Below, piece after piece: positions 1 to 50,659 of a stretch of DNA of 64,000 nucleotides. The notes below the pieces were generated by a model, which had not been told where the DNA came from, did no database searches, and worked only from the letters and a program-made list of their open reading frames with translations. Both the position numbers and the translations under genes were made by a program. The first letter of the stretch is position 1. Each line of letters starts with the position of its first letter. Location: the NCBI RefSeq assembly GCF_963678975.1, contig NC_089274.1, positions 26,909,053 through 26,973,052 on the forward strand, in the 5' to 3' direction. This DNA is from Dysidea avara (Eukaryota > Porifera > Demospongiae > Dictyoceratida > Dysideidae).

Positions 1-551
1 ATCCCAACTGTCAAAACTCTTATACCTGATTGTGGATTCAACGAATGACTGATTCATAGTGCTTGCATGAAGGATTTTAATAGCTACAGTGGCTATGTTC
101 TCTCATCATTTCACTGTTTATGAAGCTCACCAAACAAGTGTTGGAATATCTTAAAATTTCCTTTACGTAGGTGTGGCAAATTTCAAGGATATCAATTGTT
201 ATTGGTGGTAAGTGCAAACCAAAAAAATTTGGATTTTAATCAGCTTCATGTCCTGGGATTGGTTAGGTAAACGTGTGTGTCTCTGTGTGGAAAGCATTAC
301 ACGGCGCTGTCGCAAATTGACACCAGTAAAGATAAATGGTACACAGAGGAGGTAGCATGCATTGTACATACTGTGGTATACAAAAGGCACCTGTAGGCCT
401 GAAGTGACATTGAACAGTCAAAAAACAAGCCTAAAATGCAGGAAATATTGCTTGCACAGTCAATGCTCTGGGAGGTAAGGAATTTGTGTAAAACATGTGA
501 AATTTGGTACACATAGCTTCAACCATTGGTGAGTTACAATGCTCTAAATAC
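1..551. repeat. dispersed repeat, parts of copies shared with 13.9 and 61-62 kb
   Basis: No gene seen. Bases about 340-450 resemble 13970-14100 and 61225-61330; all three hold a stretch close to CGAACAGT..AAATCAAGCC. Bases about 465-551 resemble 62550-62636. The block therefore belongs to the same dispersed element family as the TIR-flanked element at 62071-62704, with a younger MITE inserted at 552. Confidence 0.55.
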
Positions 552-967
552 TTAACCCATTAACGGCCACAGCCGCCATATGGCAGCATGGCATTATAGC
601 TTACTCATACAATAAACTTTAGCCTCGCTATAACTTGTAAAACGCATTTCATAGCAAGATGCGCTAGTACTGAAACGGACACGCCCATAGAGGTCCCATT
701 TCTGGGATAACTGTATCTTTCCTGGACTAGTGCGTGTTTGTTATGTAATAGCGTAAAGTGTAACCTGTTATAGTAGCTTAATAGGCGAATTAAATCATTC
801 TTTGAATTAAGAACTAGTAGCTGATAACAAAGAAAGTGTTATACATTGATGGAGACAGGTAAAGCCGACAGTCGGCTGCTTAGTAGTTCTGTGTACTGGA
901 CAGTTAGTATGATGCGATTTGGCAATTCGGCCAGGGATCCCAGAGAATTTGGCCATCAATTGGTTAA
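552..967. mobile_element. TTAA-flanked MITE, copy 1 (piggyBac-type target site)
   Basis: TTAA stands at both ends (552-555 and 964-967). The inner ends are imperfect inverted repeats (CCCATTAACGGCC on the left against CCAATTGATGGCC, read inward from the right). About 300 internal bases match a second copy at 52960-53645, including a shared CCGCCATATGGCAGCATGGC. The flanks rejoin to match uninterrupted sequence at 62620-62690, which acts as an empty site. No transposase ORF. The piggyBac link rests only on the TTAA target and the termini. Confidence 0.75.
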
Positions 968-1051
968 AACCGCGGTACTTTTAAATAGGCAGTGAGCTTG
1001 GTTTTCCCACATGTAGTGCATGCATTACATGTAGTAATGCTTTACACACAG

Positions 1052-3315
1052 GAATGACTGGTAATAATGATTTGGACAATGCTGTGTTGGGAGGATCTTC
1101 TGATTACTTGGATGACTTAGCCAGTAACGTGTACAAAGCTTGGTTTGCCAAGGATGATGAGAAGGTTATTAAATTAATTTGTGTGCTTTGTACGTAAATT
1201 TTAGTATAGCTTGCTGAGCTCAAAGAGAAGACTGTACCTCAGATGTTTGGTGTCCTTCAGAAGCATGTGAAGAATGGACACTTCATTGGATCTGAGGTTG
1301 GTATCCTGTACATGTTAGGGCTGTGCTGATCACCATCTTTACCTATTTGACTGTGTTATTGATATTTTATAAGTACGCTGTAATACCTAACCCACTCATT
1401 GCCATAACTGCATCACATTGTAAATGCTTTGTAACTTCTGCTAGTAGCCACTGCACTTATCCTGTTGTTTTCATGCTCTTATAAGTATATAGGAACATAC
1501 TATTGTGGGTAGTATGTTATCGCATACCTTTTGATGGTCAACAATAAACATTGTATACCGTAGAGTTGGGTTGTTAAGTGCATGTGCTTATAATTTTCAG
1601 AGAAAACTTTTGTAAAAAATCATACTATCTGTTATACTCATACACCTAATAAAATTATGGTGTGCTTAACACGAAATCACTATGTTGTAATAGCTAATAG
1701 TTTGTGCTGGTCACCACGCCAATGTGTAAGGATATTTGACTCCATTTCTGGGTGAAATCCTTCATGATAAACAAGAATATCGCAATCCAGAAGACTGATT
1801 TGCTGTTTGCATAGTGAAGGGAGACCTCAAGGGAGACGTAAGCGCTCAAGTGGACAAATTTTCTAGCACTTCCAGTTTTTCTTCCCCTATGTAGCTTTGT
1901 TGCGTGTTGAGCCTCGCATTTGACCATGCACGCTTATCAGCCAGGTTGATCACAAGATATGTGTATGCGCTTAGCAAGTAATAATTATGCGCTTAATAGA
2001 TGCATGTGCTTAACAACCCAACTCTGCAGTATTCAAAATAATGAATATCAGTTATACCTTTGAAGTATTGGCTCTGCTTGTCTTGTCCAAAAGCCTGCTA
2101 GAGCCCCTCAAATAACGTGGGCTCAGCTACCCATTATGAATTACCTCAGGTGCAACCTTCCTAAGCATTTTAATTTGATACAGAAAGAGCGAGATACAGA
2201 GTCCAGAAAGTAAACTTACAGCTAGGTTGTTGCCTTCTTTTGGCCTTGCATTTTCTTGTTGAATAAGCAACCACACTAAACTGTACAGTAACTAGTAACC
2301 CTGCTGTAAGTTTGTAGTAACCTTACTTAGACTACAACAAGTTTGATACTGAAATTTGATTGGCTGAAAATGTGGTCTCTAAATCCCGTAGTACCACACT
2401 CATGTCCTATAGTGACTACGATACGAAACATGGCAATTACATGCCTGTATCATTGGCAAGACATGGGCATTTAAATGGATAGTAACAGCCATACTGAATT
2501 AGAGGGAGGTGTAATGGGCTGGTCAACTCTAGCTACATTAATTTCTTGTTTACAGGCAGCCGCAAAAGGTACAACAATGAGTTGTAGTCCATTTAGTTAT
2601 ACTTTGAAACATAACAACCTGTAACATTGGCAATGTATGGGTGTTTAAATGGATACAACAGCTAGGCGGAGGTGTAGATGGCTTGTTTCTACTAATTGAT
2701 GATACACGTTTCATTTACAAGCAGCAGTCAACTCAAGGTACAATAACGGGCTGAAGTCTAAATAAGTTAAATGTCAAGAACCAATGGTTCTTGATGTCTA
2801 ACTATTGTTTAGTGACATAAAAGAAAACTATGCGTAAAATTTTCTGGTAGTATGTAGATACTCACATTAAATTTTGCACCGGACATGAACTTGACCAGTT
2901 GGCATATATTTGCTACATGAACATGTGCTTATTTTTGTGTGCATAAATACAAGACTCAAGTGTTTACAATATATGCATGTCTGAGGATGTTAGGCAGAGC
3001 AATGCATACAGCACCTTGCATTTGCTGAATAAAAATCATGTACTAGTGTATTTGTGTAACATTATAGTGTAAAATTTAATTGATTTTGGAGTAAGCTACT
3101 ATGTTTTGCGTAGTCAATCTTATAACAATATTTGTTTGTTTTTTTAGAAACTTTCATGGGTGGACATTCAAGGATATTGCCTGTTGGACAACTTAGCAAC
3201 TAGGCTTGGTATCAGTCTGGCTGACTACCCTGAGCTCCAGAAACTTCATGATGATGTAGCTGCTCTACCAAACATTAAGAAGTGGTTGGAGACTAGGCCA
3301 AAGACTGAAAATTAG
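1052..3315 (+). CDS. sigma-class glutathione S-transferase, 3' exons (partial at left edge)
   Basis: Three exons continue one reading frame: 1052-1164, 1210-1296 and 3148-3315 (stop TAG). They encode most of the all-helical C-terminal GST domain. The last exon holds the N-capping box LSWVDI and ends PNIKKWLETRPKTEN, a typical GST C-terminus. Exon sizes of 113 and 168 nt match the complete gene at 19274-35997. The middle exon is 87 nt against 96 there, three codons shorter. The first intron is only 45 nt (GT..AG). Exons 1-2, with the catalytic tyrosine and the G-site, are not found between 1 and 1051, so they lie left of the window or are lost. Predicted role: cytosolic glutathione conjugation or ligand binding. 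Confidence 0.85.
1558..2029. mobile_element. TA-flanked MITE (pogo/mariner-like)
   Basis: Inverted termini C(C/T)G(T/C)AGAGTTGGGTTGTTAAG lie just inside TA dinucleotides at 1556-1557 and 2030-2031. The 472-bp interior has only a 77-codon minus ORF that I do not recognise. It sits in the last intron of the partial GST gene. Confidence 0.7.
2412..2763. repeat. diverged tandem duplication, ~170-bp unit, two copies
   Basis: Two successive stretches share the order TTGGCAA..ATGGG..TTTAAATGGATA, then GGAGGTGTA, then TTTACA(G/A)GCAGC, then AAGGTACAA. Intronic in the partial GST gene. Function unknown. Confidence 0.6.
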
Positions 3316-3426
3316 ACAGACAGCTTCATCTTTAGCAGACAGAAATTTTTAATTATCATTGTAGTTGTTTGTGCTGACATTGCATTAGATTTGTATGGAC
3401 TAATACAACAATGTGATTTTCTTGAA

Positions 3427-4220
3427 CAGGGGCGTAGCCAGGATTTTTTGAAGGGGGGTTCCAGCACCAGCATTGAGATACTAGAAGCAGGGGTCTGGGG
3501 GCGCAGCCCCCAGCCGCTGAGAGACTTTCAATATTTTAATAAATCAAAACTCAGTAAATTGCTATATTTTATGCAAAAAGTACATTAATTATGATGCATT
3601 AAGTGCCCCTGGGATGAAGGTAGTACTAGATAAAGTCACCTAGTGGAAACAGACAGTATAACACATATAGTAATCTGTAAGTGATGGTTATATCTCACTG
3701 TGGTATAGGAGCCATGAATCCACTGATACAAATGACAATCAAAACAATATAGCTATACAAATATGCATAGCATGAATTCATTTTGCATAACACAAGTGAT
3801 AAATTACTGGAGCTCTATATCTTTAAACACTGCACACCAAAGCTATAGCAGTATAAGGTCATGTTTTGCATTTAATGTTGGAATGTCTGAAAAACTTCAT
3901 ATGGACATGGATATTTACATGCATGTTCTATTAGAGTATACCTGACTGCTTTATTAGAGTATATACTTGACTGCTCTATTAGAGTATATCGATCTTTTTA
4001 ACAAGTTTTGAAGAGGGCTCATGTTACCTCTGTAAATCCTTCCCTGAGAGATGAATGTAAGTTTTATCAATTGTTGTGCTGTGCCATTACACTATATTGC
4101 TCACTCATGTTGTCCTGCCACACTAAATGGTGTGTTAGGATCCTGCTTGCAGAAGTCTAAATTTTACAGGGGGGTTCCTGAACCCCCCGGAACCCCCCCC
4201 CCCCCCTCCCTACGCCCCTG
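3427..4220. mobile_element. hAT-like non-autonomous element, 5-bp target duplication
   Basis: The left end CAGGGGCGTAGCCAGG and the right end TACGCCCCTG are inverted. TTGAA is duplicated at 3422-3426 and 4221-4225. The interior has the 'GGGTCTGGGGGC' core and three copies of the dispersed CTCTATTAGAG-type motif at about 3925-3990. No transposase. Confidence 0.75.
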
Positions 4221-6267: not shown

Positions 6268-7513
6268 ATGCTATATGGTGTGTTAGTTGCCAAAGTACAT
6301 GTAATTGAGTTCCAGAAACGTGGATTACCACACTGCCATTTACTTATTCATCTGCGACATGAGGATAAATTAAGACATAGACATGACATTGATAAGTTAA
6401 TATCTGCCGAGATTCCAAATCCAATTACACAACCAGATTTATATAATATTGTTAGGAACTGTATGATACATGGTCCATGTGGGCATTTGAGACCGGATTC
6501 TGTATGTATGGATGGTGGTGTATGCACAAAGAATTATCCCAAGGACTTCTGTGCAAATACAATGGAATCAGTTGATGGATACCCTAAGTACAGACGCAGA
6601 GATAATGGTGCAACTGTGAAGGTGCATAATGTTGGTGTGGACAATCGTTGGGTGGTTCCTTACAATCCCTGGCTATTACAGAAGTATGGAGCTCACATTA
6701 ATGTGGAGGCTTGCATGTCAATAAAATCTGTCAAGTATTTATACAAGTATATATACAAAGGACATGACTGCATCAAGTTAGAGCTTGCAGAGACACTCAA
6801 TCATGACGAAATCCGCACATTTCTAGATGCAAGATATGTAAGTGCACCTGAAGCAGCTTGGAGGCTATTTGAATTTCCAATGCACCACCAGTCTCACACC
6901 ATTGTACGATTAGCTATCCACCTACAGGATCAACAGAATGTGTATTTTACTCAAGGCCAAGTTGAGACAGCCCTCATTAATGCCAGCAAACGTGACACTC
7001 ATCTCACTGCGTGGTTCAAGTTGAACGAGACAGATGTTGATGCACGTCACTTGCTGTACAGTGATATACCATCACATTTCACTTTTGATAGTACATCTCG
7101 CAAGTGGAAAAAACGTTGCAAGGGAGGTGATAAAGTCATCAGCAGAATTTATGCAGTCTCTCCAAGTGAAGGAGAGAGGTATTATTTACGAATTGTGCTG
7201 CTGCACACTCCTGGAGCTAGGAGTTATAATGATTTGCTGCGGGTTGGTGATAGGGAATGTGAGTCATTTAAGGAAGTGTGCCATTTACTTGGTTTGCTAA
7301 AGAATGATGCTCAGTGGCACAAAACTCTAGATGAAGCATCATCCTTTCAAATGCCGTACTAACTCAGAAGAATGTTTGTAACTATACTGACTCATTGTGA
7401 TCCAGCAAATCCAATTGAACTATGGAGTGATCATAAGACAAGCCTTGCTGAGGATTATCTACAGCGTCAACCATTTGATGATGCAATACAACTATCTGGG
7501 AAATAGGTTCATT
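6268..7513 (+). pseudogene. Helitron Rep (HUH) domain relic
   Basis: The frame opens with an internal segment (VHVIEFQKRGLPHCHLLIHL) carrying the HUH motif H22-C-H24, as in Helitron replication initiators. A cysteine-rich stretch follows (about residues 66-95). Next is the tyrosine-rich KYLYKYIYKGHD at about 156-167, where the nicking tyrosines lie in this family. The N-terminal part of a full Helitron protein is absent. The ORF stops at a TAA at 7360-7362, but the same frame goes on with recognisable sequence (LRRMFVTILTHCDPANPIELW) to a second stop near 7504. So there is one nonsense change, then truncation. Known role: rolling-circle transposition. This copy cannot make a full protein. Confidence 0.85.
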
Positions 7514-7523
7514 ACTCGCACAC

Positions 7524-9006
7524 ACTGGTAAATGTCTCTCTGACTATGGCATTCCTTTGCCTACATATAACTGCAATGCAGATAATAGTGTTGATGGAGA
7601 TGTGTCTCAAGTTGCAAATGCTTTACATAACCTGCTCAACCCCCAGCAAAATGAAGTTGCTGATGCAATAATTTATGCAGTTAATTCACATGATAGACAT
7701 ACACCTAAAGTATTCTATTTGGATGGACCAGGTAGAAGTGGCAAGACTTTTACCTACAATTACTTGGCAACAGCAATGCATGCAAAAGGCCACAAAGTGT
7801 TAACAGCTGTATGGACTGGCATTGCTGCTACACTGCTAAGTTGTGGACGAACTGTACACAGTTTGTTCAAACTGCCAGTCCCTTTACTTGACACCAGCTG
7901 TTGCAACATTACACCAACTTCTAATTATGCTGCAATGTTAAGGGAAGTTTCACTTTTCATAGTAGATGAAGCATCAATGGTGCCCCTACATGCTTTCAAT
8001 GCCATAGACAGATTATTACGTGATATCACTGGAATTGACATTATGTTTGGAGGTAAAGTATTTTTATGGGGAGGAGATTTCAGACAAGTATTACCAGTAG
8101 TGCAACATGCTCATCCAATTGCAATCATAGAGAAATGTATTAAGAGACCTGTCAATTGGTCATCTGTCACCAAGTTTCATCTCACCACAAACATGAGGGT
8201 GAATTGTGATGAAGTAGAGTTCTCTGTGCTGAAGTTGGGTAATAATGAATTTACAATGAAAAGTGATCAGCCATTTGAAGGATGTATTGCAATGCCTGAT
8301 AGATGTGTAACCAATTCAGTGGTGACATCAGTATTTGGTGATGTATTTGACAAAAACACTTCGTGTGATATTGTGCCCAACTAATGATGAATCATTGAGG
8401 TTGAATGAAGCCATACTGCATTGTATTCCAGGAGATGCAAGAATTTATTTTAGCTCTGATGACATCTTAACCGATGATGATGAGGAGAGGGCACAATATC
8501 CAATTGAATTCCTGAACAGTTTGACACCATCAGGAATGCCACCCCATAGGCTGTCACTTAAAGTTGGTGCAGTTGTGATGCTACTGCAGAACCTCAATTT
8601 ACATGAGGGACTGTGTAATGGCACACGCCTATTGGTAATCCATCTACATGAGAATTGCATTGATGCTGCAATCCTAACTGGAACTGCAGTCAACAGCAGA
8701 GTGTTGATACCACGCATACAACTTGCACCATCAGACAGTGACATGCCATTTGTCTTAACCAGATGTCAATTCCCATTGTGCTTATCTTATTCTATGACAA
8801 TCAATAAGGCACAGGGACAAACGTTTGGGAAAGTTGGAATTTATATGGAGAGACCATGTTTTGCACATGGACAGTTATATGTGGCATTTTCGAGAGCCCG
8901 TCGTTTTGCAGATGTTTTTGTGCAAATTGTAGAATCTACACAACAAGGAAGACACCGAGGTACAACTTATACAAGGAACATTGTATATAATCAGATTCTT
9001 TGTTGA
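7524..9006 (+). pseudogene. Helitron Pif1-like helicase relic, frameshifted
   Basis: SF1 helicase motifs appear in order. Walker A is GPGRSGKT (G57-T64 of the 275-codon ORF), Walker B is LFIVDEASM, and motif III-like GGDFRQVLPVV follows. After a one-base frame change near 8355-8365, the second frame (to 9006) has LCPTNDESLRLNEAIL and the motif V/VI region TINKAQGQTFGKVGIYM with QLYVAFSRARR. Together these are the two halves of a Pif1-type helicase as fused to Helitron Rep. The frame enters from upstream through GKCLSDYGIPLP (about 7525), while the join to the Rep part is deleted or out of frame. Walker A has RS where GT is usual. Confidence 0.85.
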
Positions 9007-9208: not shown

Positions 9209-9762
9209 TATAACACTGTTTACAGTATTCAGAAATTTGGAATTTCTAGCTCAGAAATATTTATCACCCAAAACCCAGCCTCATGCACTTTTCCTTCATA
9301 ATTATATACACCTTGGCAGCAGTATTGGTTAGGCATAACCAAGCCTGTAAATACCTTCATAGTGATCCCCAAACACTGTGAAAAAAGCTCAGAATAATAA
9401 GGTGTATAACAGTCTTATTATGTTAGTATTGGAATGAATTAGTACAGTATATATTAATAGATTAGGACTTTACTATAACAAGCTTATTGAATACATTTAA
9501 GATGGTCATATATTAGAGATTAAATCGCTAGTATAGTGCGGTGTATTATCAGACTATACTAAGCCTATTTCAACCATATATTGGCTACTATACTACTGTA
9601 CTTTTTTACTTTCCTATAATCTGTGGCTACCTTAATTAAATAATTTCTATAATTATATTTTTAATGAATTTAAGTCTGTAAATATGTTAAAACCACAATA
9701 GGTACAGCTAGTAAATCAATGTCTCCTTGGCCATGACAGTATCAAATCAATTTCTTCATTTT
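9209..9762. other. no gene seen
   Basis: AT-rich sequence with no recognised coding or repeat structure. Confidence 0.5.
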
Positions 9763-11008
9763 TCAGTCTTTATCCAACTGCAGCAGGTAAGACAGTAAAT
9801 ACAATTCACAAGTTCCATTACAAATTACCTGTATTATCATCATTATGTAGAACTCTGACAATCTGTTAGTTGTCTGGTAGAACTGTCCCACAGCTCTAAT
9901 ACAAAGATGGTAAATATAATGTTTATTCTGGACAATCGTTGGACTTACAGTTTGTAAAAAACTGGACCTTGTCTGGAAACCTAGCATTACCATGTAGAAC
10001 GGCGGCTAGGTCCCACAACTCTATTAAAGATGGTAAATATAATGCGTATACTGAACAATCATTGTACTTACAGTTTGTAACAATCTTTTAAAACTGAGAC
10101 CGACAATCCATGTACAACTAAGACAAGTCTGATAAGACCAGGTCTCACAACCCTAAACGGAGGCAAACATAATTCATATTCTGGATTACTTGGTGTACTT
10201 ACAGGTGTTATCAGTGAGTCTAACCAGACATAAAACGACCACTTAGTATGTGACTTTGTTGGGCTAACGTGTTACGTAAGCTCACAAGAAGCATCTGATA
10301 CACTGATAACCAAGTCCAAGAATCTTGTAATCACTAAGTACAACTGAAACAAGACTAAATATAATATAATTTGCATACTCTCAGTGAACTTACTTTTGTT
10401 AGCAATACGAGCATGGTCAGTGAAATAAGGACAAACAAGATGGAACAGGTACTTGAAAGCACTCAACTCATTTACAGTGCCAGACGAGGTAGCAGCCGTC
10501 AGCTGTTGATAAAAAGTAGTGAAAAACATGAAGAAATGAGACCGGTTCCCAAAAGAAATGAGACCAATTTCCACAAACCTAAACGAAGGTAAATATAAAT
10601 TGTATACTGGACACTCTCAGTGTACTTACTTACAGATGTTAGCAATACGAAGAATCTCCTAGAATCGAGACCAAGTCTGTAATTCCTACCCTATTGAAAA
10701 GAAAATGAATAAAAACACAATCAGGCTTAATGCACTTACAGCTGTAAGTAATTAGAAGATGACGTTGAACAACTCCGTGAAAAAAGAACCAAAATGTCCA
10801 CACATGGTCGCTACCAGATTCTTTAACGGAAGCAGCTGCCATTGAAGGAAACTAACACTGCAGATGTTGTACACTGACAGCCTGTAGAACCAAGAGGTTC
10901 GACAAGAAACTGTACCTCTGAAGAGATAATATACAAAATCATAAGAGCAGACCATGCATACTCTTACCGTTGATGGCTGATGAACTGTGTCCACTCGTCA
11001 TCCGCCAT
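9763..11008 (-). other. tandem array of exon-like units with homologous micro-introns
   Basis: On the minus strand six GT..AG intervals of 49-55 nt are similar to one another: 10691-10739, 10579-10633, 10344-10393, 10153-10202, 10021-10071 and 9896-9948. Most begin GTAAGTACA or similar, pass through CAGTATA/CAGAATA and TTATATTTACC, and end TTTAG/ATAG/TCAG. A further GT..AG interval (10918-10967) follows a short ATG exon at 10968-11008 (reads MADDEWTQFISHQ). The intervening exon-like pieces are 57, 185, 141, 81, 72 and about 130 nt. They share starts like GTTGTGRGACCTGG and ends like TATTGCTAACA/ATTGTTACAAACT. I could not join them into one long open frame: several carry stops in one phase though each is open in another. 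It may be a real small-exon gene, a non-coding transcript or a decayed tandem duplication. Product not recognised. Confidence 0.5.
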
Positions 11009-11149
11009 AAGCTGAGATAACAGGATATAAAACATGTAATACGTACACACCAACACCAAAGTTGAATCATTTGCAGGCCATTGTCATACAATACACAATA
11101 AACAATTTAATACGGCTAAACCTATCGTACAAGCTATCATTTTAGTCTA

Positions 11150-11440
11150 ATACCTACTCATCTAGAGCTGTTTTTGATGGCTGCCATTGAAGGAATTGTC
11201 CACTTGGCCACGCCACTTCACCACTACCGTGACAGGCCAGCAGGGACAAGCAGGGATGTACAGTTGTGGTCCATAACTATCATCGTGGCTCATTGGACGA
11301 TGGCGCCGATCGCGCACACTCTCTCCGCGAGATACACCGTCCGAGGACACCACCATATCACTCACATTTACAACCTATGATACAACAATAGCGACAAAGA
11401 TGGCGACTTAATTGCATCTAATACGCATGCGCACACCACT
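11150..11440 (-). promoter_or_regulatory. putative promoter and first exon of the minus-strand array
   Basis: This is a locally GC/CpG-rich island in AT-rich surroundings. ACGCATGCGCA (11423-11433) matches the NRF-1 palindrome and AAAGATGGCG (11395-11404) resembles a YY1-type start-site element. A 67-codon minus ORF (11162-11365; its caller start may not be ATG) could be a first exon. It shares TTCCTTCAATGGCAGC with the exon-like piece at 10740-10917. Confidence 0.4.
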
Positions 11441-12470
11441 GACCCCTTCAATTTTAGACAAGCATTACTACGAAGTTTTGCAGGTGTGCTAACTGTGCAA
11501 GAAAATCTAGATTTGTATGACTCTTAGATTGAATAATTAATTTTTCTGGTATTATATGCTTTGCCATATGAAAATGTGTGCGTATGAAATTATCACAACA
11601 AACTGAAGCTAGTTAGCTAGATATAGTGATTAACAGAAGTGTAGCTATTTATTGTAAAATCATCATGACTTTGTTTGGTACAGTAAAAAAATCTTAAGTC
11701 ACATGGGATGGTGATAATGAGATGGTGAAGCTAAAAATAAGACAATAATGAGATCTGATGGTGAAGCTAAAAAGTTATCACATTTAGTTAAGTAAACAAA
11801 GCCATACAAAGAATGTGTATTAAACTAAAGTATAATCTGTTTCCCATAATATAAGATGGGGTTTATGCTAAAGTATAAGATAGTTAGTATAATGCAAGAC
11901 TATACTGAGATTATTTGTATAGTTTAAGCCATTAGATATACCATCTTATATTCCTCTTTTTTCACAGTGAAACCCTTCTGACAAGTTTCTGTGCATGAAT
12001 TATTCTTCAAAATTTCTACTTATAACTTCAGCTAAGCATATCTCAACAGGTTATGAGCTTGATTTCTTCACTGACTTTGGCCAAAGATGCACCTATTCAC
12101 CAACTGCAGCAGCTACAATGCGTGTTATTGGACCTACTTTTCTCCTCCTTTGTGTCCCATTTCTTTCTCCACTACCATGTAGTTGATTCACGGTAACTCA
12201 TGACATGGCTTCAGTATTAGTGTGACTAGATCGACAACAGAAATGCTTCTCATACTGTTCTTTGTTTGTAATGCTGTATATCAGATGGAACATAGCTGAA
12301 GCAAAATGGCCACTTCTACAGTACATAGTCCTCACTGGCAATAAGTTCAGTTTATCAATTCAACTCCCTAATGCAAAATATCCCTATATCAAGTAAATTG
12401 GCTATAATGGTGAGTTATATAGATCGCGATATGTTTTGATATTTGGTGTCCTAGCCATGTGCTTTTAACT
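11441..12470. other. no gene seen
   Basis: AT-rich. Two nearby partial direct repeats (GATGGTGAAGCTAAAAA at about 11718 and 11757). The 63-codon plus ORF near 11995 has no recognisable features. Confidence 0.5.
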
Positions 12471-16009: not shown

Positions 16010-17338
16010 TTATTCAGGTACAGTAGCAAGTTTGGAATTGACCAATACCTTAGTTGCAGTGGGGCCTGGTTTACCACCATGAAAGTCAAACTTCAATTCC
16101 ACACCAGGTCGGAAAATTAGGCAATGTGTAGAGCCACCAAAGTGAAACATACCTAACTGTTGACCTTTCTTCACCCACTGTCCTTCAGTAACAGTAATAT
16201 CACAGGAGGATACTTCAACCATTCCAATAGCTACAAAGCACATCAACCCTATGTATGGATTATCTGCTTCAATGGCGATTATGGCTCTGGTCTGCACTTC
16301 AGCAAGGTAACCTTGATCAAAATGATCTTTTATCAGTGGCTCAGAATAGTAGGTGCCATCTTGAACATATGCTTTAACAATTTTACCATTTACTGGACTG
16401 TGCCATCGGTGATAGTAATAGATATCAAGAAAGCCTTGGTATACAGTTCCTCCAACAAATCTGTCAGCAAGTGGTTCATTTGCTAGCATAAACTTCAAGT
16501 TATAAGGCTGGCCTTTTATCCAAAATTTGCCATGCTTTGAAGCATTTCTTTCTACTCTCAATGGTGCTGATTCGCATGCATTGACAATAACTTTGTCATC
16601 ATCTGGATGCGCAATAGGACGGGCGTTAGGTCGAGCTTGTCTGGTAAAGAAATCATCCCATGAGGTGAAACCATAGTGTGGCTTACTTGGGTCACATACA
16701 AATTGCTCTTCAAAGTTTCCTCCCATCTTTTCTATGCATTGGTTGCTTAGCCATCCATCAGTCGTCAGAACATAACATGATGAAGGTGACATTAGAAACT
16801 TTGCCCAAGTATTTAGGATTTTCTTAAGATGAAAATTTACTGTCGTGTTTAAAAATGCAGCGTACCCACCAGTTGTGCCTGCTTGCTTATATAATATTGC
16901 GTACATTGATACAACTACAGAAGGACCATCTGGATTGTATTCTGGAGCTTGTAACAAGATATTGTTCATTAGTTGAAGCATATGGTGGTAATTTCTAACC
17001 TCGGATTGGCTGGTTTGAGACCTCTTAGTTGTTGGGGTCTCAGTAAACATTTCATTGAAGAACATGGTAAGCTCTGCACTACTTTCTATGGCATCTTTGA
17101 AGCTTTGAACAACTGGATTCAGTGGTTCTGGCTGCGCCTTACCATCAACTTCTTTTATTTGCTTTTGCAACCATCGGTCTAAAATGGCTTGATCAGAAGG
17201 CAGCCACCTGCCTACACAATACGGCATACTGCGGTTGTCGATCGCCACCTCGTTCTTGTCTGTGCGAGCTGGTGTGTCATGATCTCCAGTGGGTCTTGTA
17301 GGAAAGATACAGCAGCAGTTTAGAAAGCGGCTTGCCAT
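16010..17338 (-). CDS. PsiD-like pyruvoyl-dependent decarboxylase (phosphatidylserine decarboxylase superfamily)
   Basis: Intronless 442-codon gene. The frame extends 23 codons further upstream, but the first ATG is at 17336-17338 (MASRFLNCCC), which I chose. An N-terminal helical region (about 45-190) is followed by the PSD-like catalytic part: GFTSWDDFFTRQARPNARPI (223-242), PDDDKVIVNACES (245-257), YYYHRWHSPVNG (307-318, H310/H313) and FHFGGST (398-404). By analogy with PSD enzymes, S403 in GGS would be the self-cleavage serine that becomes the pyruvoyl group. Motif order and length match the PsiD branch (fungal L-tryptophan decarboxylase type) better than membrane PSD. No transmembrane segment is evident. 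Substrate is inferred only: an aromatic amino acid or phosphatidylserine. Confidence 0.87.
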   Translation of the reverse strand: MASRFLNCCCIFPTRPTGDHDTPARTDKNEVAIDNRSMPYCVGRWLPSDQAILDRWLQKQIKEVDGKAQPEPLNPVVQSFKDAIESSAELTMFFNEMFTETPTTKRSQTSQSEVRNYHHMLQLMNNILLQAPEYNPDGPSVVVSMYAILYKQAGTTGGYAAFLNTTVNFHLKKILNTWAKFLMSPSSCYVLTTDGWLSNQCIEKMGGNFEEQFVCDPSKPHYGFTSWDDFFTRQARPNARPIAHPDDDKVIVNACESAPLRVERNASKHGKFWIKGQPYNLKFMLANEPLADRFVGGTVYQGFLDIYYYHRWHSPVNGKIVKAYVQDGTYYSEPLIKDHFDQGYLAEVQTRAIIAIEADNPYIGLMCFVAIGMVEVSSCDITVTEGQWVKKGQQLGMFHFGGSTHCLIFRPGVELKFDFHGGKPGPTATKVLVNSKLATVPE

Positions 17339-17526
17339 TACGAACTTGCTGTAGAGAGATTCAGCACTCCAGAGAAAACTGAACTTTGTTGAGTAAGGTA
17401 TGCACACCCTCTAATGTCTCCACAATCATGTGACCGAGGGCATGTGACTTTTCGTACCCAGACCTGTTTGCGCATTAGCGCGAGCCCGGCTGAGCACGAG
17501 ACTAATTTCCGCCTAGAGGAGCAGCA
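17339..17526 (-). promoter_or_regulatory. upstream region of the decarboxylase gene
   Basis: More CpG-containing than its surroundings (for example TTTGCGCATTAGCGCGAGCC at about 17467). No TATA box is clear. Likely holds the 5' UTR and promoter. Confidence 0.35.
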
Positions 17527-37323: not shown

Positions 37324-39120
37324 CTACATAATAGCTCGCTTCCATAGAGATGAGATGACATCTATATTTGGTTGTAATGTGCTGAGAGATAGCAGCATAG
37401 TCTCAAGCTTAAAACTTCCAACAGTGAACAACTTTCTATTTGGAAATCTTTCACTCAACATTTGCTTGATATTAGCTAGAACACATACTTGGAAAATAGA
37501 ATGAGCAATAACGTGCATTGTTGACAACTGAGGAGAGTTGGATATTAAACTAGAAATTCCTTCTGTTGTCACTGATCTCACAGACAGCACCACATGTTCC
37601 AGTTCACCATGAGCTGATACTTCATTCATAAAAGCATCAGGAATATCAGTTGAATCTGACAGTACATATAACTGCTGTAAATGACACTGCACATTGGTCT
37701 GTTCTAATGACAGTGAAGTTGAAGAGTTCCTTGAAGTATAGTTAACATGCCTTAGCTTCAAACAATGGGAGGTGATGTTCTGTACAATACTAGATCCCAA
37801 TTCCATCCAGTTCAACTTAAGGTAAGTCACTGCTGGAAAGTGACTTAGCAGTAACACATCTTGTTCAACATAGTCGTCACAGTCGGGACAATACTCTGCA
37901 GATGGTTCGAATTGTAATGCTTGTAGGTGTACACACTTTTGGAACATGGAGATCAGACATTGGTTGTATACATCATCATCTCGCAATGGTCCTATCAAAC
38001 ACAACTCCATTGCCAGATGGGTCAGGTTCAAGTTGCTCAATACCTCCCATAACTGCAACTGATCTTCAACTTGTGCAACTTGTATTCCCAACAGGTTCAG
38101 TCCTTGTAAGTTGTTACAACAAGTGGCAATAGCACGTAAACCTTGTAAGCTGTTCAGACTTATGGCAGACAACCCAAGTCTGTGCAGATTTGGACACATT
38201 CGTGCAACTTGCTCTAATTGGTCAGATTGAAATGTGTCATCACCAGAAAAATCAATATCAGTCACAAATCTAAGGATACCGATGTTATAGTTTACTCGAT
38301 CTGTACAAACAAAATCCCCAGGATGCCATATGTCTGTCTTGTATACTGCTTTACTGCCATGACTACACTCTGTCATAATTAGATGATAACTATCTTCCAT
38401 TCCAAACAGTTGACTAGCATCCAACAGTGGAAGTGTGGCTGTCTGACCAAACTGCAACTGAAACACTGGTAGAGCTAGAAAGAGATTCATTGGAATTTTT
38501 AAACCATCATAGACTCTAACACAACCAGTTCGACCAGCTGGAAAATTAGCATGCCAAAGTGTCCATGCACTGAGAAGACTGTCTGCAAATGTGTAGTTAC
38601 AAATAATATTCAAATTTTCTGGCACAAACCCTTTCTTTATCCAATCTTTCAAGAATTCATCCAGTTCTATATTGTGACGATCATTGTACTGTACTCGAAT
38701 GGTCACATCTGATAGGCTATCACTTAGCAACAGTAACTCACTCATGTCTGTGCTCCATCCAATATCTAGCCTCTGCAATCCCTCCATGCGTGTCACAGCC
38801 ATCTTAAACATTGCAGGTTGTAACCCACAAGGCACACTTAGCGTTGTGACGTGATTACAGTACTGCGAGATAATTGCGGGTGCTGGAGAGGGCACGTGAT
38901 CCGGGAATGACAACGTTTCTATGTATCTTCCACATGACTTCAAAACCTTGACGACGGATTGTTCTTCATCAAACGACCAGCAAAACTCTCTCCACAGTGA
39001 TGGTGTTTCCATAATGCTTCGAAACTTACATGAAACCAACCACAAACTCACTCTGTCACGTGTACTGGTTACAAAGGTCAGTAAATACATCAACAACTCG
39101 ACGGGAAGAAATGGTAACAT
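37324..39120 (-). CDS. F-box / leucine-rich-repeat protein 1, intronless, 598 aa
   Basis: An open frame extends 16 codons further upstream, but the first ATG is at 39118-39120 (MLPFLPVELLMYLL). This aligns with the start of the paralogue at 48753-50540, so I used it. The N-terminus (about residues 3-47) is an F-box: LPVELLMYLLTFV then DRVSLWLVSCKFRSI and SLWREFCW. The rest has irregular leucine-rich repeats, for example CPNLHRLGLSAISLNSLQGL and CCNNLQGLNLLGI. In this family the F-box binds Skp1 of an SCF ubiquitin ligase and the repeats bind the substrate. No signal peptide or membrane segment seen. Two CACGTGGT sites lie just upstream (about 39165-39190). Convergent with the complete GST gene. 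Confidence 0.85.
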   Translation of the reverse strand: MLPFLPVELLMYLLTFVTSTRDRVSLWLVSCKFRSIMETPSLWREFCWSFDEEQSVVKVLKSCGRYIETLSFPDHVPSPAPAIISQYCNHVTTLSVPCGLQPAMFKMAVTRMEGLQRLDIGWSTDMSELLLLSDSLSDVTIRVQYNDRHNIELDEFLKDWIKKGFVPENLNIICNYTFADSLLSAWTLWHANFPAGRTGCVRVYDGLKIPMNLFLALPVFQLQFGQTATLPLLDASQLFGMEDSYHLIMTECSHGSKAVYKTDIWHPGDFVCTDRVNYNIGILRFVTDIDFSGDDTFQSDQLEQVARMCPNLHRLGLSAISLNSLQGLRAIATCCNNLQGLNLLGIQVAQVEDQLQLWEVLSNLNLTHLAMELCLIGPLRDDDVYNQCLISMFQKCVHLQALQFEPSAEYCPDCDDYVEQDVLLLSHFPAVTYLKLNWMELGSSIVQNITSHCLKLRHVNYTSRNSSTSLSLEQTNVQCHLQQLYVLSDSTDIPDAFMNEVSAHGELEHVVLSVRSVTTEGISSLISNSPQLSTMHVIAHSIFQVCVLANIKQMLSERFPNRKLFTVGSFKLETMLLSLSTLQPNIDVISSLWKRAIM

Positions 39121-40932
39121 GCTGACAAACTGGTCACGATTGCAAACCTTCACCCCCGCTGTGAACACGTGGTCTCAAGATCACGTGGTATTTTATTGCT
39201 ATTAAAATTTCCCGGGTTTGTCAGTATACCAATGATGTAGACGCAGGATTAGATTAGAGCGTTCAGTACGAACTGTTTAGTAGTAGGGTTCCTCCTAAAT
39301 GACGGGTGCTGCCTAATATAAAATGCCACCTTTAAAAATTATGTGGATTAACTGAAAGATACATATTATTAAACAATTGTACATTAAATTTTAGTGGTAA
39401 AGCACCAAATTTGGTACAGAGGTAGAGGATCACCTTACAAAAAAAATCTGGATATCATGTGGGCCAATGCAGACCACGCCCCCTCTGATAGGTTCCGCCC
39501 ACTCAATGGAAAATGACAAACTGAACATGAACTCTACCATATGATAATTAGGCCACTCCAAGAAAATTCATTGTTTTCCATTTCCCGCCCGCATGCAGAT
39601 TCTCTTCCCGCATGGTAATTCATTATTGCTGTCAACTGAACATTTTGTTCATTATTATCCTGTGATTGCATAGCAGTAACTAGTTTAGCATTCAGAAAGC
39701 CCATTTAGCTTTTCACTGTTCAGGTTCTTAGTTTAAATATTTCTACTGTATTCTTACCTGTAAGTTAGTTATGAATTTCAAAAATTAGTGGAAATATCTA
39801 TAATGAATAATGAACCACCCACCAGCATGTATTTTTGAGGTCAATGAAATGGGAAAAAAGGAATTTTCTTGTAGCGGCCTTACACTAATTTATCTATTTT
39901 GGTAGAACAGACATGGCCAAAACTGGCAAAACACACTTTGTGTGTAGCATCTCTACTGAGAACACTGCTGTGACAGTATAACCATGAGCAACTGCGTTAT
40001 TAGACTATCATCATTAATGTGAACTTATCTGATGTTTTATGAGTCATGTGGATGCTCTCATATACTTTAACTATTTAAGAAGTGTTAAAGGTAAGAACAC
40101 ATACTGTGCATCATAGGGAATATGTGACCAGATTTGCAAAAAGGCACACAAAATTTGACCCATTTTTTTAAACTTAACTTTTTTTAATATTTGCATATAA
40201 TTACCTGAAATTTTCCACAAGTGCAGTTAACGTATTTGGCTGCAGTTTGAAACTAAGAACAAGTTAATCAGTATAAGGAGTCAAGTGTTACATCATTTTG
40301 ATTGCTGGCATGTAAAATGTGTGGTACCTTATGAGCTAAGTGACTGTCACATTGCCTGACTGCTTTATTAGAGTATCTGGCCAAAATCATAATTCAGAAG
40401 CACAACACTTATAGCATTTTTCAGAACAATGCTATAAGTGTTACTATCATGTGAGAAACTATTATTTAACTACATGTAAGATAAAGTTTAAAATGTGTTC
40501 TAGATTCCAGAAACCTGAAGTTTTAATTTCTTAATGTTTCTAGTGTGTAAAATCCAAATCAGTATGCCTTGGGTAAGATTTGCTTGCACAGTATGCAGTT
40601 TACATACCAATGCTAACAGTACTTCGCTAAATCAATAGTGTATAAACATATCACTTCCATGTGTTACTCTGCATGCTTTCACATACGCTCCTTTTCAAAC
40701 TACCGTTGAGGTAAAATCTATCTATTATTGCCCATTGTTAAATACAATATAGTTCCCCAAGTCATTCAAATACTTACCAATGCATGAAGTTCCACTGTAG
40801 TAAATTTGAAAGATCAATTTACAATGTACATACTTTGCCTAAACTTCTAAACGTCATAAACTATTAAATCACAGTTAGAATATTCTACTCGCAGTCAATA
40901 TATCAGCAATGACACAGTTATATCCATATAGT
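39121..40932. other. no gene seen
   Basis: AT-rich. Bases 40127-40170 resemble the end of the mariner-type MITE at 29861 (TATGTGACCAGATTTGCAAA), with no partner end found. A TTTATTAGAGTATC motif lies near 40360. Confidence 0.45.
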
Positions 40933-48752: not shown

Positions 48753-50540
48753 TTAGATATGCCACAGAGATGATGTGACATCTATATTATGCTGTAATAC
48801 GCTACGAGAAAGTATAGAACTTCCAAACATAAAACTTCCAACAATGAACAACTTTCTATTATAAAATCTTTTTTTCAGGATGATCCCGGTATCATGCAGG
48901 TAACCTGAATGAACAAAAACATGAAGTGTTGACAACTGGGAAGAGTTGGCTATCAATGTAGCAATTCCATCTCTTGTCACTGAACTCACAGACAACACCA
49001 CATGCTCCAGTTCACCGTGAGTTGATACTTCATTCATAAATGTGTTAGGAATATCAGTTAAATCTGAATCTATAAACAACTGATGTAAACAACACTGCAT
49101 ATTGGTCTGATCTAATGACAAAGGAAATACAGAGTTTCTTGAGGTATAACTGAGATACCTTAGATTTGCACAACTAGAGATTATATTCTGTACCAAGTTA
49201 GACCCAAATTCCATCCAATCCAGCCTACAATAAGTTAGTGATGGAAAGTGACCTAACAGTAACACATCCTGATCACTATATTCGTCACAGTTGGGACAAT
49301 ACTCTATGCCTGCTGGTGGTTCTACCTGCAATGCTTGTAGGTATACACATTTCTGGAACATAGAGATCAGACATTGTTTGTACGTATCATGCAATGGTAC
49401 TATCAAACATAACTCCACTGCTAGATGGGTCAGCTTCAGGTTGCTCAATATCTCCCATAATTGCAACTGATCTTCAACTTGTGCAACTTGTATTCCCAAC
49501 AGGTTCAGTCCTTGTAAGTTGGTACAATAAGTGGCAATAGCACGTAAACCCTGCAAGTTGTTCAGACTTATGGCAGACAACCCAAGTCTCTGCAGATTAG
49601 GACACATTAGTGCAACTTGCCCCAGTTGGTCAGATTGAAATAGGTCATCACCAGAGAAATCAATATCAGTCACAAATCTGAGGATATCAACATTACAGCT
49701 GACTTGATCTCTATAAACAATGTCCCCGGGATACCACATGTCCGTCTTGTACATTGCTTTGCTGCCATCACTACACTCTGTCAAAATTAGACTATAATTT
49801 CCTCTAGTTCTAAATAACTTGCTAGCATCTAATATTGGAAGTGTGGCTCTCTGACCAAAGTTTAATTGGAAAGTTGGTAATGCTGGGAAGAGATTCAATG
49901 GAGGCTTAAAGCTATCATAGACCTTAACACAACCAGTTTTACCAATTGGAGAATTACAATTCCAACTTGCCCATGCAGTGAGAAGAGTTTCTACATAGGT
50001 GTGGTTACAAATAATATTCACACTTTCAGGTTTAAACCCCTTGTTTATCCAATCATGTAAGAAAGCATCTAGCTCTAGATTACGATGATCATTATCCTGC
50101 ACTCGAATGGTCACATCTGATAGGGTATCACTTAGCGACAGCAATTCTCTCATGTCTGTGCTCCATCCAACATCTAGCCTCTGCAGTTCTGCCATGTGTC
50201 TCACAGCTTTCTTTAACATTGCAGGTTGTAACACACAAGTTGGCATACTTAGTGTTGTGATGCGATTACAGTACCGCGAAAAAACGTCTGGTGCTGTATG
50301 GGGCACGTGATCAGGAAAGGACAACATTTTGATGTAATTTCCACGTGACTTCAAGATACTGGCGATGATTTGTTCTTCGTGAGACTTATAAGAAGGCCAA
50401 CTAAACTCTCTCCACAGTGATGGTGTGTCCATAACACTTCGAAGCTTACGTGAAACCATCCATAACCTCACCCTGTCACGTGTACTAGTCACAAAAGTCA
50501 GCAAATACATCAACAACTCGACGGGAAGAGAATGTAACAT
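48753..50540 (-). CDS. F-box / leucine-rich-repeat protein 2, intronless, 595 aa
   Basis: Starts MLHSLPVELLMYLLTFVTST (ATG 50538-50540). The F-box covers about residues 4-45 (DRVRLWMVSRKLRSV, SLWREFSW). It is colinear with F-box gene 1 over its whole length, with shared stretches such as NLQGLNLLGIQVAQVEDQLQ and LEHVVLSVSSVT, and a leucine-rich-repeat body. Differences are spread along the protein, including small indels (EYCPNCDEYSDQDV against EYCPDCDDYVEQDV). Expected to act as an SCF substrate receptor. Its start lies 120 bp from the start of the oppositely oriented GST pseudogene, so the two probably shared a bidirectional promoter. Confidence 0.86.
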   Translation of the reverse strand: MLHSLPVELLMYLLTFVTSTRDRVRLWMVSRKLRSVMDTPSLWREFSWPSYKSHEEQIIASILKSRGNYIKMLSFPDHVPHTAPDVFSRYCNRITTLSMPTCVLQPAMLKKAVRHMAELQRLDVGWSTDMRELLSLSDTLSDVTIRVQDNDHRNLELDAFLHDWINKGFKPESVNIICNHTYVETLLTAWASWNCNSPIGKTGCVKVYDSFKPPLNLFPALPTFQLNFGQRATLPILDASKLFRTRGNYSLILTECSDGSKAMYKTDMWYPGDIVYRDQVSCNVDILRFVTDIDFSGDDLFQSDQLGQVALMCPNLQRLGLSAISLNNLQGLRAIATYCTNLQGLNLLGIQVAQVEDQLQLWEILSNLKLTHLAVELCLIVPLHDTYKQCLISMFQKCVYLQALQVEPPAGIEYCPNCDEYSDQDVLLLGHFPSLTYCRLDWMEFGSNLVQNIISSCANLRYLSYTSRNSVFPLSLDQTNMQCCLHQLFIDSDLTDIPNTFMNEVSTHGELEHVVLSVSSVTRDGIATLIANSSQLSTLHVFVHSGYLHDTGIILKKRFYNRKLFIVGSFMFGSSILSRSVLQHNIDVTSSLWHI

Positions 50541-50659
50541 AATCTAAGTTAACAAAACAACGACCGTTCATAGTCTAATAACAAATCATATGATAGTACA
50601 ACCATAGATGACCCAACCTTCGCACATTATTTTAAGCGCCTATTCAATTAATTCAGTGC
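50541..50659. promoter_or_regulatory. 119-bp divergent intergenic region (F-box 2 / GST pseudogene)
   Basis: Lies between two outward-facing start codons (50540 minus, 50660 plus). Contains a TCATATGA palindrome (about 50587). Inferred bidirectional promoter; no specific factor site is certain. Confidence 0.4.

Follow-up and report, generated by a model that had tools for sequence, protein, structure and literature searches.

The nearest known case to the locus described here is Tgm-Express1, a soybean CACTA element whose captured gene fragments are spliced as extra exons (according to the part of PMC1947982 drawn on here), a precedent for exons and introns as the cargo of such an element. 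The Pack-TYPE and Pack-CACTA elements of plants also combine a non-autonomous DNA transposon with gene-like cargo (as excerpted from PMC8903248). CACTA/EnSpm elements in general have ends starting with CACT, a 3-bp target site duplication and subterminal repeats (in the excerpt of PMC8978399 used). Introners are many similar short introns that are spread by DNA transposition (likewise from an excerpt, PMC9860276).

In this study we analysed a window of 64,000 nucleotides from the sponge Dysidea avara (the whole stretch of contig NC_089274.1 from position 26,909,053 to 26,973,052, forward strand). A first-pass annotation had described a tract of tandem exon-like units with similar short introns at positions 9763 to 11008, but overlooked the transposon of about 200 copies that encloses it. 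The tract is the interior of one copy of an inverted-repeat, CACTA/EnSpm-type transposon, the outline of which is as follows.

9374..11969, minus strand: non-autonomous CACTA/EnSpm-type DNA transposon, 2,596 bp, holding the whole tract (similarity limits, inverted ends, 3-bp flank repeats)
11956..11969, minus strand: left terminal inverted repeat CACTGTGAAAAAAG (the 29-nt left end matches 1,075 genome places when up to 3 mismatches are allowed)
9374..9387, plus strand: right terminal inverted repeat CACTGTGAAAAAAG (the 29-nt right end matches 201 genome places when up to 3 mismatches are allowed)
9371..9373, no strand: target site duplication AAA, 3 bp, one side (flank comparison)
11970..11972, no strand: target site duplication AAA, 3 bp, other side (flank comparison)

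In this element, as in Tgm-Express1, CACTA-type ends enclose gene-like pieces with exons and introns. Tgm-Express1 differs in carrying five fragments from known host genes, with splicing demonstrated by RT-PCR (in the same part of PMC1947982), whereas the sponge element has an internally duplicated tract, about 200 copies and introns predicted from sequence alone. Pack-TYPE and Pack-CACTA elements contain recognisable host coding DNA (again within the PMC8903248 excerpt), and none was recognised here. Unlike CACTA/EnSpm elements in general, this element has no internal transposase, and its ends start with CACTG. It also differs from introners, as the mobile unit is a 2.6-kb element that does not begin or end at intron borders.

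The limits of the element were found by comparing its copies. There are at least 42 genome matches to the tract, 41 of them besides the window at 93-98% identity (with 40 of 269 candidates scored), and in most of 20 aligned loci similarity stops at 9374 and 11969, exactly or within a few bases. The CACTGTGAAAAAAG inverted repeats sit at both of these limits and begin with CACT(A/G), as the terminal inverted repeats of CACTA/EnSpm transposons do. An identical 3-bp flank repeat was seen in 28 of 28 copies with both ends paired and a 4-bp repeat in none of them; the end pairs were picked by hand, and among these copies are a nested pair (L027) and a 337-bp miniature (L038). Outside this comparison are L022, L025, L028 and L034, where one end was not found, L044, which is a partial sequence, L001, L002, L003 and L006, which repeat copies already represented by the window, L009, L010 and L011, and also L004, L005, L007 and L008. 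Taken together, the inverted ends and the constant 3-bp flank repeat are hallmarks of CACTA/EnSpm elements. The subterminal repeat AGTATAGT, counted together with its complement, has one occurrence in the left 350 nt, three in the right 350 nt and none mid-element, which are small numbers counted without a shuffle control.

Several copies depart from this plan. At L027 (3989-9140) one copy is nested within another and both have a 3-bp flank repeat of their own, and the miniature at L038 (4164-4500) has left-type sequence at both ends and the flank repeat AAG. Four copies (L029, L031, L033 and L035) carry an extra 250-280 nt at a common site near element position 1700; this insert, with inverted arms seen by eye in L029, is a nested miniature element. 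It marks a subfamily in which identity to the window copy falls to about 83-86% over the left part. Elsewhere in the window, inspection of the open reading frames by eye shows long frames resembling a Helitron replicase/helicase (6268-9006, plus strand), a 466-aa frame without introns resembling phosphatidylserine decarboxylase (16010-17410, minus strand) and two similar long intronless frames resembling F-box/leucine-rich-repeat proteins (37324-39174 and 48753-50543, minus strand).

Within the element we find eight intron-like intervals, of which five are related to one another.

10918..10967, minus strand: intron-like interval 1, GTAAGA..CAG, 50 nt, with no clear relationship to introns 3-7 (splice-form scan, pairwise alignment)
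10691..10739, minus strand: intron-like interval 2, GTAAGT..TAG, 49 nt, with no clear relationship to introns 3-7 (splice-form scan, pairwise alignment)
10579..10629, minus strand: intron-like interval 3, one of the related five, 51 nt, or 55 nt with an alternative donor at 10633 (alignment; 201 genome copies)
10344..10393, minus strand: intron-like interval 4, one of the related five, 50 nt (alignment)
10153..10202, minus strand: intron-like interval 5, one of the related five, 50 nt (alignment)
10021..10071, minus strand: intron-like interval 6, one of the related five, 51 nt (alignment)
9896..9948, minus strand: intron-like interval 7, one of the related five, 53 nt (alignment; 206 genome copies)
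9778..9828, minus strand: intron-like interval 8, GTAATT..CAG, 51 nt, with a weak donor and no clear relationship (splice-form scan, pairwise alignment)

The six GT..AG intervals of 49-55 nt of the first-pass annotation are all present on the minus strand, and the pieces between them, which it put at 57 to 185 nt, measure 57 or 61, 185, 141, 81 and 72 nt. Its statement that all six are mutually similar holds for introns 3-7, which align among themselves with z 2.5-8.4 against shuffles that keep the splice ends, but not for the interval 10739-10691, which reaches only z 0.6-1.5 against these five. The intervals 10967-10918 and 9828-9778 do not exceed z 2.2 against any other. Across the five related introns every one of the 8 splice columns is invariant, compared with 14 of 41 other columns (Fisher p 0.0007, in an end-to-end alignment that somewhat favours invariant edges), and the bases ahead of the AG differ in both length and sequence. 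Using a rule of a GTRAGW donor followed 45-60 nt on by a pyrimidine-rich YAG acceptor, we find a suitable acceptor for 9 of 10 donors on the element's gene strand and for none of 3 on the opposite strand, while 1,000 dinucleotide shuffles gave a mean of 0.75 pairs with a maximum of 4, and 224 overlapping background windows gave at most 3. Two of the nine donors are alternatives for one intron, another (10148) lies within an exon-like piece, and the five related introns have a common origin, so the independent evidence is less than a count of nine implies. Donor hexamers are kept in 91-100% of 34 aligned copies against a mean of 88% for 92 further hexamers matched in composition, a comparison in which L004, L005 and L010 are nearly identical, as are L007 and L011 (by match position and identity); this is at most suggestive of selection on donor sites among the copies.

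The related introns alternate with exon-like pieces, of which the last three form tandem units.

10072..10152, minus strand: exon-like piece e5, 81 nt, opening the last three tandem units (alignment)
9949..10020, minus strand: exon-like piece e6, 72 nt (alignment)
9829..9895, minus strand: exon-like piece e7, 67 nt (alignment; at least 170 genome matches to a 29-nt word)

These three pieces share 54-59% identity with one another and introns 3-7 share 59-83% (gaps included), so that the introns are the more similar part of the units. The refuting observation named in the first-pass annotation, introns no more alike than the exons, was therefore not seen. The start and end words said to be shared by the flanking exons are visible at the exon edges, but firm likeness over the whole exon is confined to the pair e5-e7 (interior z 4.9). 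The two remaining pairs reach interior z 2.6 and 2.7, nearly level with the unrelated pairs e1-e7 (2.6) and e2-e7 (2.5). Duplication of an exon-plus-intron unit, the simpler of the two options first put forward, is therefore the better one from these alignments: it has good support in the introns and exon edges and only moderate support over whole exons, being less firm across the last three. Each complete tract among the compared loci has five unit matches. The exceptions are L027 with ten, because it holds two elements, L028, which has lost one donor in a deletion, L034 and L038, which are without the tract, and L044 with its partial sequence. The presence of five units in every complete tract indicates that the duplications are older than the spread of these copies.

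Genome-wide counts were made with 29-nt words at up to 3 mismatches over 550.8 Mb in 108 contigs, and reversed-pattern controls gave no match for any of the five words. The right end has 201 matches, intron 3 has 201 and intron 7 has 206; the word from exon 7 has at least 170, a lower bound because most copies differ from the pattern by one base. The element is thus present about 200 times, with about one copy each of introns 3 and 7 per element. The left end is found 1,075 times. This surplus of left ends consists at least partly of miniature copies, since L038 has left-type sequence at both of its ends. A genome-wide search with the intron had been suggested as the way to tell introners from tandem duplication, and the introns do match about 200 places, but nearly all of those checked are copies of one transposon. 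For 64 intron-7 places on contigs C1-C4, drawn from 100 of the 206 genome places, another family landmark lies within 4 kb in 62. The remaining two, C1:44824600 and C4:21276518, have no listed landmark within that distance; the latter has a family exon-3 match 7.2 kb away on the same strand. An intron profile run over 310 kb gave 151 matches within elements and 6 outside, the best of these at E 1.8 and none significant. The introns have spread with the transposon, and there is no sign of their own movement as introns.

The tract shows no coding signal. The remark that its frames do not join cleanly is borne out: over all splice choices the longest ORF is 85 aa, a length that 6 of 40 shuffles reach or exceed (shuffle range 43-143). 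Changes among the copies are spread evenly over codon positions 1/2/3, with distinct changes of 21/22/25 in the longest exon frame and 23/25/20, 8/5/6 and 30/31/33 in three others, and variant cells of 33/81/43, 68/67/47, 12/13/13 and 76/52/59, without an excess at position 3. Exon-like pieces are conserved at 0.9635, slightly less than intron interiors at 0.973 (rest of the element 0.943), which gives no sign of exon protection. The product was rightly called unrecognised, as nine pieces of the tract have no Pfam match over the cut-off; the one match listed is DBD_Tnp_Mut at E 0.091, below its cut-off, with nothing else up to E 1. Rfam gave no match at E 0.1 or better over 9300-12050. One further feature of the element is its composition upstream of the tract.

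11170..11369, minus strand: GC-rich island, 54% GC, 12 CpG in 200 nt (composition)

This island (11369-11170) looks promoter-like or first-exon-like and may point to captured gene DNA.

We favour, with a probability of roughly 0.6, the explanation that the tract is the cargo of a non-autonomous CACTA/EnSpm-type transposon, namely a captured and decayed fragment of a multi-exon gene whose unit was duplicated before the element amplified. A piece of such a gene, probably from the host, would have been captured as genomic DNA, and its introns would once have been spliced. The unit of an exon and a short intron would then have been duplicated several times. After this, the element would have spread by cut-and-paste to about 200 places, carrying the introns along, moved in trans by a transposase encoded at another place in the genome. 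A host source gene was not found among the genome matches listed, where element copies fill the list. A joined-exon pattern, searched for spliced DNA copies, matched 5 genome places, all with 2 mismatches (control 0); two of them, L042 and L043, were rejected because they resemble the element over 12-17 nt only, and no spliced DNA copy was seen among these. Finding neither a host source nor an autonomous partner tied to these ends counts against this explanation, as do two further observations. The greater likeness of introns 3-7 than of the exons is unusual for a duplicated coding exon, and the exons are slightly less conserved among copies than the intron interiors. The tract is nevertheless probably a captured gene fragment, and less probably one of the following two alternatives.

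The first of these is that the tract was never a host gene and derives from a gene of the parent element itself, for a transposase or accessory protein, of which it is what internal deletion left. Non-autonomous elements often arise in this way. The genome contains many Transposase_21 reading frames (101 matches, 100 over the cut-off), which also makes a transposase source within the genome plausible, but none of these matches could be tied to the element's ends. Against this origin, the Pfam search of the nine pieces found no domain over the cut-off, and no transposase was found inside an element with these ends. Among 100 exact left ends listed, two have a Transposase_21 match within -12 to +20 kb; in one the copy ends before the match, and in the other the match lies outside the left end. 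We consider an own-gene origin unlikely. None of the candidate autonomous partners compared fits: L034 shares only the first 355 nt, L039-L041 lack inverted CACT ends with matching 3-bp flanks over the stretches searched, and in L044 the Transposase_21 match adjoins the left end of the copy but is outside it and belongs to a different transposon. By eye, one reading frame of L034 looks like a Gypsy-type reverse transcriptase, and L044 has broken Transposase_21-type frames at 5601-1703 (reverse strand 1-3899), directly beside the left end of the copy.

Secondly, the tract could be a diverged non-coding tandem repeat in which the GT..AG ends are coincidental and nothing was ever spliced. The lack of a coding signal, with a best ORF within reach of shuffled sequence, is in keeping with this, as is the result for spliced copies at L042 and L043, and five related units amount to one coincidence. 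It is harder to reconcile with the unrelated intron-like intervals of near-equal length that adjoin the related five, with nine donor-acceptor pairs where the other strand has none and no shuffle exceeds four, and with splice columns that stay invariant while the bases ahead of the AG vary. A non-coding repeat therefore seems quite doubtful to us. It is improbable, though conceivable from the sequence, that the element holds an active promoter together with a non-coding mini-gene that is spliced and whose exon-plus-intron units multiplied by tandem duplication. If so, each of the roughly 200 insertions would seed an exon/intron array, giving exon and intron gain without an introner.

The bolder suggestion of the first-pass annotation, that the 50-nt introns are themselves mobile introners inserted singly here and in genes elsewhere, is very improbable: it would account for introns that are more alike than the intervening exons and for the two places without a listed landmark, but about one intron copy per element and 62 of 64 places beside landmarks argue against it, as do the non-significant profile matches outside elements and a likeness that reaches the edges of the exons. 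Introners are marked by similar introns that lie in many unrelated genes and not within any larger repeat, a pattern not found here.

What appeared to be a candidate for spreading introns becomes a dispersed CACTA-type family with gene-like cargo. The locus demonstrates that a set of related introns within one element can mimic introners when a single window is considered. If the introns are still spliced, the roughly 200 copies would be ready-made exon/intron insertions and a natural test bed for the gain of exons and introns.
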